From positions 1,536,796 through 1,600,795 of the forward strand of contig NZ_CP038452.1 of assembly GCF_004684245.1 (NCBI RefSeq): a stretch of 64,000 nucleotides of DNA. Direction: 5' to 3'. This document shows positions 57,568 through 58,782 of this stretch, piece by piece. The DNA comes from Thermus caldilimi (lineage in GTDB: Bacteria > Deinococcota > Deinococci > Deinococcales > Thermaceae). The translations under genes and the position numbers were made by a program. Numbering within the stretch: the first letter of the stretch is position 1; each line of letters opens with the position of its first letter. The notes beneath the pieces are model-generated. The model had not been told where the DNA came from, did no database searches, and was given only the letters and a program-made list of their open reading frames with translations.

Positions 57568-58782
57568 ATGGCTGGCCCTCCCCTTGCCGCCTCCCACCGG
57601 AGCCTGGGCCAGGTGCCCACCCCCAAGGCCCTGGTGGACTTTATGGTGGGCCTGGCCGAGGCCCCCAAAGGGGGGCAGGTGCTGGAGCCCGCCTGCGGGG
57701 AAGGGCCCTTCCTCCGGGCCTTCCGGGAGGCCCACGGCACCGGCTACCGCTTCCTGGGGGTGGAGGTGGACCCTCTGGCCCTGGACCTCCCCCCCTGGGC
57801 CGAGGGGGTGCGGGCGGACTTCCTCCTTTGGGAGCCGGGGGAAGCCTTCGACCTCATCCTGGGCAACCCCCCCTACGGGGCCCTGGGGGCGGGGGCGAGG
57901 CTACTTCCTGAACTCCGCCAGGCTTACCGGGAGCGCTTCGCCACCTGGTGGGGGCGGTACAACCTCTACGGGGCCTTCCTGGAGAAGGGGGTGCGCCTCC
58001 TGAAGCCCGGCGGGCTCCTGGTCTACGTGGTCCCCGCGGGCTGGATGGTCCTAGAGGAGTTCCAAAAGCTCCGGGCCTTCCTGGCCCGGGAAGGGGCTTT
58101 GGAGGTCTTCTACCTGGGCCGGGCCTTTCCCGGACTCAAGGTGCGGGCTGCAGTCCTGCGCTTCCGCAAAGGAGGAAAGGGGCTTCGCCTCTACGACGCG
58201 GAAGCCCTGGGGCAGGGCCATCCCCCCCTGCTCCTCCTGGAAGAACCCGCCTGGCAGGGGGAAATGGTGCGCTTTCCCCACGAAGAGGCCCTAACCCTGG
58301 AAAGGGAAGGCCTCCCCTTGGGGGAGGTCTTCCGCATCCGCTTCGCCGCCAGGAGCCCAGAGGTCAAGGCCCACCCCCTGACCCAAACCCGGCCGGGCCC
58401 CGGCCTGGTGCCCGTCCTCACCGGGAGGAACCTCCTGCCGGGGGAGGTGGACTACGAAACCCCCCACTCCGGCCTCTACTTCCCCAAGGAGGCCGCGGGC
58501 CTCCTCAAGCCCTTCTACGCCCTCCCCCACCTGGTGGTGGGCCACACCCGCCACTACCGGGTGGTGGCCGCCTGGGACGGGCGGGCTTACCCTTGGCGGG
58601 AGGAGTTCCACCTCCTCCCCAAGGAGGGGGTGCGCCTGGACCTCGAGGCCCTGGTGGCCTACCTGAACGGGCCCGAGATCCAGGCCTACTACCGGGGCCT
58701 CTACCGGGAGGTGGTGCCCCACCTCACCCGGCCCATGCTGGAGCGCCTGCCCCTGCCCAAAGGCCTCGTCAGCGCCCGGTGA
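57568..58782 (+). CDS. M.TaqI-like adenine-N6 DNA methyltransferase
   Basis: A 404-residue gamma-class N6-adenine methyltransferase. SAM motif [11 protein letters not shown] (39-49) and catalytic NPPY (100-103) align with M.TaqI, and long stretches agree ([43 protein letters not shown]). So TCGA is the probable target, the A being methylated. It is shorter at the C-terminus than M.TaqI (421 residues as I recall). The ATG follows the previous stop directly. No TaqI-type endonuclease gene is beside it in the window: the next gene runs the other way and encodes a membrane protein. Confidence 0.92.

Follow-up and report, generated by a model that had tools for sequence, protein, structure and literature searches.

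A solitary M.TaqI-type methyltransferase gene at a Thermus locus that carries the methylase with or without its TaqI nuclease

The window analyzed here is a 64,000-nucleotide stretch of contig NZ_CP038452.1 of Thermus caldilimi (assembly GCF_004684245.1), and it carries a gene for an adenine DNA methyltransferase (M) among conserved neighbours (Table 1). The product of this gene matches M.TaqI (PDB 1aqj) over residues 5-397 with an E-value of 1.4e-172, and has Pfam matches to Eco57I and to TaqI_C, the latter covering profile positions 2-118 of 118. Both hallmarks of the M.TaqI family, an adenine methylase core with NPPY and a C-terminal TaqI_C domain, are present, and on these matches the gene is an intact M.TaqI orthologue. 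The NPPY tetrapeptide at residues 100-103, which we take to be motif IV, is invariant in all 28 methylases compared (29 aligned rows minus the outgroup, G035). The predicted target is TCGA, methylated at its adenine on both strands. A first-pass annotation had described the C-terminus as shortened; this is literally true (404 versus 421 aa in 1aqj) and of no significance, since the recognition domain is complete and three methylases that are linked to a nuclease, those of genomes G009, G011 and G024, are equally short (405, 401 and 401 aa).

Table 1. Coordinates of the solitary methylase gene, its domains and its neighbours in the window.
Feature	Position	Strand	Basis or remark
KBL/BioF-type PLP acyltransferase	56380..57567	+	TIGR01825, above cut-off
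Solitary M.TaqI-type N6-adenine DNA methyltransferase, 404 aa	57568..58782	+	ORF, profile matches, structure match
Catalytic NPPY (residues 100-103)	57865..57876	+	alignment of methylases
TaqI_C target-recognition domain (residues 282-396), complete	58411..58755	+	Pfam match
Convergent small ORF, no family match	58769..59155	-	overlaps methylase 3' end by 14 bp
gyrB, right-hand conserved flank	59240..61204	+	NF004189, above cut-off
hrpB helicase, outer flank, used in flank tree	61257..63611	+	TIGR01970, above cut-off

The gene is tightly enclosed on both sides. The KBL/BioF gene (TIGR01825 score 601.6 bits, cut-off 535.4) ends immediately before it, with the methylase start codon following the stop codon directly (TAG|ATG), so co-transcription is likely and the methylase is probably read from the KBL transcript. 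There is no space for a nuclease gene, as had been claimed from the sequence at first pass, because the last 14 bp of the methylase overlap the convergent ORF, which the first pass had taken for a membrane-protein gene; in eight of 27 Thermus genomes, this junction with the small ORF is the place where the nuclease gene is found. Further upstream lie a DDE transposase ORF and a 169-aa ORF (54714-55835 and 55747-56256 of the window). The transposase ORF is within a stretch of about 1.2 kb that is missing from T. caliditerrae (G008). This stretch adjoins the 3' end of the 169-aa ORF, whose relatives in G011 and G024 have about 300 aa, and the insertion appears to have truncated the ORF.

We searched the genome in full (2,447,659 bp in one contig, 99.79% complete) with the RE_TaqI profile (PF09573) and found no match; in a control set of 14 genomes, the same profile matched one, that of Thermus composti. 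This search, which covered the known TaqI nuclease family, places the cognate nuclease (R) of a complete TaqI restriction-modification (R-M) system neither beside the methylase nor elsewhere in the genome. The initial description of an orphan methylase without its restriction enzyme holds up in this respect, and a nuclease gene elsewhere, which had been named as one finding that would overturn it, was not encountered within the TaqI family. The gene is no one-off, as it represents one of two versions of a locus that is filled in all 27 Thermus genomes examined.

The methylase gene was present in each of these genomes, the window's included, and KBL precedes it in every case. The nuclease occurs in eight genomes (G005, G009, G011, G013, G016, G024, G026 and G006, where R is split over two contigs), always directly behind the methylase and on the same strand; close relatives therefore hold nuclease-linked homologues at the same locus, the pattern of an orphan related to an R-M system. 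The gene order is KBL - M [- R] - small gene - gyrB, which runs on to gyrB without a contig break in 25 of the 27 genomes and across a break in G006. In G025 (L043), KBL and M are in place and the small gene and gyrB were not found in the 8.7 kb downstream, where the right flank seems to be rearranged. Each genome was thus found to carry a predicted methylase either alone or followed by the nuclease, and an empty KBL-gyrB locus was seen in none of the 27. The methylase gene is intact in 26 genomes and broken only in G020, an assembly of 620 contigs and 65% completeness in which the gyrB and hrpB matches are also broken. Outside the genus, a comparable methylase (E up to 1e-20) occurs in two of the order's 84 other genomes; one of them is G071, from a neighbouring genus, where it sits at the same KBL-gyrB place without a nuclease. 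Among all 111 genomes of the order, nuclease matches were confined to the eight Thermus carriers.

In a protein tree of 29 methylases (built with treekit, G035 being the outgroup and the broken copy of G020 left out), one side consists of the methylases of the eight carriers, that of the nuclease-free G021 and that of phage phiLo (support 95). A solitary clade (support 100) holds the remaining 17 Thermus methylases and is joined by G071 (support 95). FastTree gave the same two-clade picture as a second tree. When we added 19 methylases from other phyla, retained from 34 loci after setting aside 11 Thermus loci and four partial matches, the two Thermus clades stayed sisters, with a support of 66 at the root; nine of these 19 loci had a nuclease by search with three nuclease queries, six had none, and four lay near a contig end. 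By these trees, the two versions of the locus carry methylases of two sister lineages, apart from the hybrid in G021. A Thermus-type TaqI pair was also seen in L077, a metagenome-assembled genome labelled 'Bacteroidia bacterium', with a methylase 61% identical to that of the window and nested in the Thermus nuclease-linked clade, and a nuclease piece 76% identical to one Thermus nuclease; it reflects either transfer or mis-binning.

The distribution of the nuclease does not follow a single line of descent. On a tree of the dnaA region, which lies away from the methylase locus, 26 genomes fall into two halves: all eight carriers belong to one half (14 genomes, six of them non-carriers), and the other half comprises 12 non-carriers, including the window's genome. 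A single clade of the eight carriers is rejected on this tree (p-AU 0.0028), and presence and absence of the nuclease require at least five changes. The dnaA tree and a tree of the locus flanks disagree in places (e.g., G008 and G022), so neither can be taken as a clean species tree and recombination blurs both.

A swap between the two versions can be seen in a pair of near-identical genomes. T. brockianus YIM 77927 (G010) has M only and G011 has M and R; the difference is a 3.6-kb swap, located at 5787-9361 in the oriented 18-kb piece of G011, and beyond this tract a single substitution separates the two. Compared in 150-base steps, G011 matches Thermus sp. 2.9 (G024) at 98.7-100% identity from about position 6301, which lies within KBL, across R and up to 9300; between 5787 and about 6300, at the left end of the tract, the likeness to G024 is not continuous. 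In other regions, G010 and G011 share 99.984% identity over 12,836 bp and 100% over a 4,287-bp dnaA piece. These observations document an exchange of versions by homologous recombination within the conserved flanks. The two genomes are classed as separate species and yet are 99.98-100% identical in the stretches compared outside the swapped tract, and a chimeric assembly is therefore a caveat on the swap.

The window itself bears traces of similar exchanges. Over nine steps of 150 bases, its methylase shares 95-99% identity with that of T. caliditerrae and 68-91% with those of G004 and G017 (T. scotoductus DSM 8553), whereas the second half of its hrpB shows the reverse (93-97% to G004 and G017, 67-81% to T. 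caliditerrae). G004 is the best match in the stretch that precedes KBL, gyrB favours neither side, and 2-4 kb further upstream the window is again closer to T. caliditerrae than to G017, so the flanks are not cleanly of single origin. In these alignments the locus is a mosaic in which the methylase segment is closest to T. caliditerrae, and this segment was probably imported, one patch among several. The G021 methylase belongs to the nuclease-linked type up to about nucleotide 1066 and to the solitary type thereafter, and R is gone; a single crossover within M would suffice to remove R while leaving the methylase intact.

We counted TCGA in 7-98 kb per genome, locus piece included, against a second-order Markov expectation. 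The eight carriers have 522 of 896 expected sites (0.58; range 0.43-0.72), compared with 1618 of 1671 (0.97) in the 19 non-carriers pooled, and among 241 tetramers none has a carrier/non-carrier ratio below the 0.60 of TCGA, with 0.83 as the next lowest value. The difference is significant if kinship is ignored (Mann-Whitney p = 6e-5) and not significant in a tree-paired test with five independent pairs (median p of 0.25, 0.25 and 0.5 at three thresholds). Five other palindromes of the 16 also differ between the groups, with smaller effects (p = 0.013-0.045, ratios 0.84-1.28). Three non-carriers, G007 (0.56), G010 (0.64) and G021 (0.70), lie within the carrier range and are kin of the carriers G011 and G024; depletion without a nuclease suggests that they lost the nuclease recently, and the hybrid methylase of G021 fits the same route to the solitary state.

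The other 16 non-carriers range from 0.82 to 1.37. The window's genome has 134 sites against 116 expected over 76 kb (1.16), and 119 against 94 in the window (1.27), so that the depletion present in all eight carriers is absent from it. The carrier-free half of the genus to which it belongs (12 of 26 genomes) has no strong depletion (0.82-1.37), and the nuclease has therefore probably been long absent there; any need for an antidote must come from outside. CGCG (0.42, 0.47) and CTAG (0.44, 0.52) are depleted in the Thermus stretches of carriers and non-carriers alike, and so not through TaqI.

Solitary methylases gave dN/dS values of 0.18-0.34 (10 pairs), and methylases of the nuclease-linked type 0.09-0.14 (six pairs, one with G021; a seventh had no synonymous change), the latter values being less sure in several pairs with synonymous distances near 1, close to saturation. 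Across the same 17 pairs, KBL gave 0.07-0.22, and hrpB gave 0.19-0.30 in 10 pairs. The solitary methylase is kept under purifying selection, perhaps slightly more loosely, and its higher dN/dS fits a mild relaxation.

We propose, with somewhat more confidence than doubt, that the window gene represents the M-only state of a TaqI R-M locus with two versions at a fixed place, kept as an antidote or compatibility allele. The methylase would be expressed with KBL and would methylate TCGA. A genome with a history of TaqI could then lose the nuclease safely only by switching to a version that still carries M, since loss of both genes would leave the nuclease cutting unmethylated DNA; R can be lost through a crossover within M that links the locus to an end of the solitary type, as in G021. 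A cell with M alone would be immune to incoming TaqI alleles, and partners that carry TaqI would accept its DNA, in a genus where DNA uptake and exchange occur. In T. thermophilus transjugation, the restriction enzyme of strain HB8 may limit DNA entry, as suggested in a passage of PMC7767461. It is this pairing of safe nuclease loss with immunity that makes an antidote or compatibility role the most likely one in our view, and selection of this kind would explain why no empty locus occurs among the genomes examined. Protection against incoming DNA cutters, which the first-pass annotation had offered as one use of the gene, would thus be our favoured reading as well.

The same observations raise a bolder possibility, which we advance tentatively. 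The KBL-gyrB interval could be a long-lived trans-species polymorphism resembling a toxin-antidote pair, with a 'killer' version (M and R) and a 'resistant' version (M only) exchanged by natural transformation or transjugation. The 'susceptible', empty version would be excluded because its arrival in a carrier would be lethal and because its bearers could not accept the killer version. If so, the TCGA counts of a genome would record the time that its lineage spent in each state.

The main rival to an antidote role is a domesticated regulator, in which Dam- or CcrM-like housekeeping (gene regulation, replication or strand marking in repair) depends on a methylase that both versions supply and that is hence never lost. 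We consider this somewhat unlikely. Retention in all 27 Thermus genomes, and in G071 at the same place, is also what regulation predicts, and the purifying selection on M, as well as TCGA counts above expectation in seven of the 12 genomes from the half without carriers, agree with it. Yet no comparable methylase at E up to 1e-20 occurs in 82 of the order's 84 genomes from other genera, and M changes much faster than KBL (60-98% versus 88-97% identity to the window genes across Thermus). Concentration of target sites at oriC is a feature of Dam. The DnaA-box cluster of oriC contains any TCGA in only three of 26 genomes, which gives no sign of a Dam/SeqA-like origin design; a role at the origin of replication was set aside on this count, and gene regulation is unaffected by it.

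That the methylase is a simple leftover, active and functionless, which persists by chance after loss of R and will decay, seems improbable. Orphan methylases are often viewed in this way, a view that is both stated and disputed in part of PMC4176335, and the dN/dS of the solitary methylases does exceed that of the nuclease-linked type. All values nevertheless stay well below 1, the only broken copy is that in the poor G020 assembly, the solitary clade extends to another genus, and the empty state is missing from the 27 genomes examined. Least probable of all is an unrecognised TCGA nuclease elsewhere in the genome or a changed target sequence of M: the nuclease search was limited to the known TaqI family, and the compared methylases show a deletion of four residues following NPPY, as well as recognition-domain differences that are fixed by clade, but the TCGA depletion seen in every carrier is missing from the window's genome, and parts of the recognition domain, the FAARSP block among them, do not vary across 28 methylases.

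The HpyIII system of Helicobacter pylori is a natural comparison; its methylase gene probably stays in place where the nuclease is absent. Like the Thermus locus, it has a nuclease gene that varies between strains, as described in sections of PMC4687069; there, however, hrgA is found where hpyIIIR is absent, whereas in Thermus nothing replaces R. Strains without hpyIIIR are called MboI-sensitive in the same sections, which speaks against kept methylation. The two methylase lineages shared across species are a further difference of Thermus from HpyIII. With the TaqI and TthHB8I type IIP systems, the window gene shares methylase orthology (Eco57I with a complete TaqI_C) and the locus of the M and R pair of the eight carriers; it differs in a genome without a TaqI-family nuclease and in a methylase of a separate sister clade. 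CamA of Clostridioides difficile is likewise an orphan adenine methylase present in every genome of the group examined, and is required for normal sporulation and biofilm formation, according to parts of PMC8187626. The Thermus methylase, by comparison, has nuclease-linked relatives at the same place, and any regulatory role of it is conjectural.

The origin of solitary methylases is disputed, as passages of PMC4176335 make clear. In these passages, a survey of 43 pan-genomes reports that solitary methylases rarely arise by decay of complete systems and that families rarely mix the two states, the general finding being one of largely separate sets of genes for solitary and complete systems. 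The Thermus locus runs against that finding: it mixes both states in one gene family across a genus, with a swap, a hybrid methylase that marks a nuclease-removing crossover, and TCGA-depleted genomes without nuclease. Two interchangeable versions at one spot amount to a natural experiment on how orphan methylases originate and why they are retained. These are well-known enzymes, and T. thermophilus has natural competence (stated in part of PMC7767461), so that experiments can set an antidote role directly against a regulatory one. Neither orphan methylases nor nucleases that vary between strains are new in themselves; the Thermus case adds a genus-wide two-version locus that is never empty (27 of 27 genomes), with a swap caught in the act. 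We found no description of a two-version TaqI locus in Thermus in the titles and abstract openings of the open-licence papers that our searches listed.

Phages provide a further setting in which a methylase could act as an antidote. Solitary methylases on mobile elements are regarded as possible antidotes in passages of Oliveira et al. (2014; PMC4176335), and phiLo, a phage of T. thermophilus HB8, likewise carries a methylase of the nuclease-linked type; the window gene differs from such genes in being chromosomal and at a fixed place between conserved genes. The phiLo methylase (L102:5001-6173) is 59.6% identical to that of the window. No nuclease is annotated beside it, and a search of phages with one nuclease as query gave no match. 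It likely serves as counter-defence against TthHB8I. Among 1346 plasmid records that match the methylase, none reaches 60% identity. Two Thermus phages also avoid TCGA strongly, with 29 sites against 106 expected over 50 kb in P23-45 and 43 against 139 over 61 kb in phiLo, and the combination of its own methylase with TCGA avoidance in phiLo fits defence and counter-defence. In the first 50 kb of P23-45 (L196), GATC is absent against 99 sites expected and AATT occurs once against 54 expected, a near-total avoidance that looks as if nucleases cutting GATC and AATT were the main threats in its hosts.
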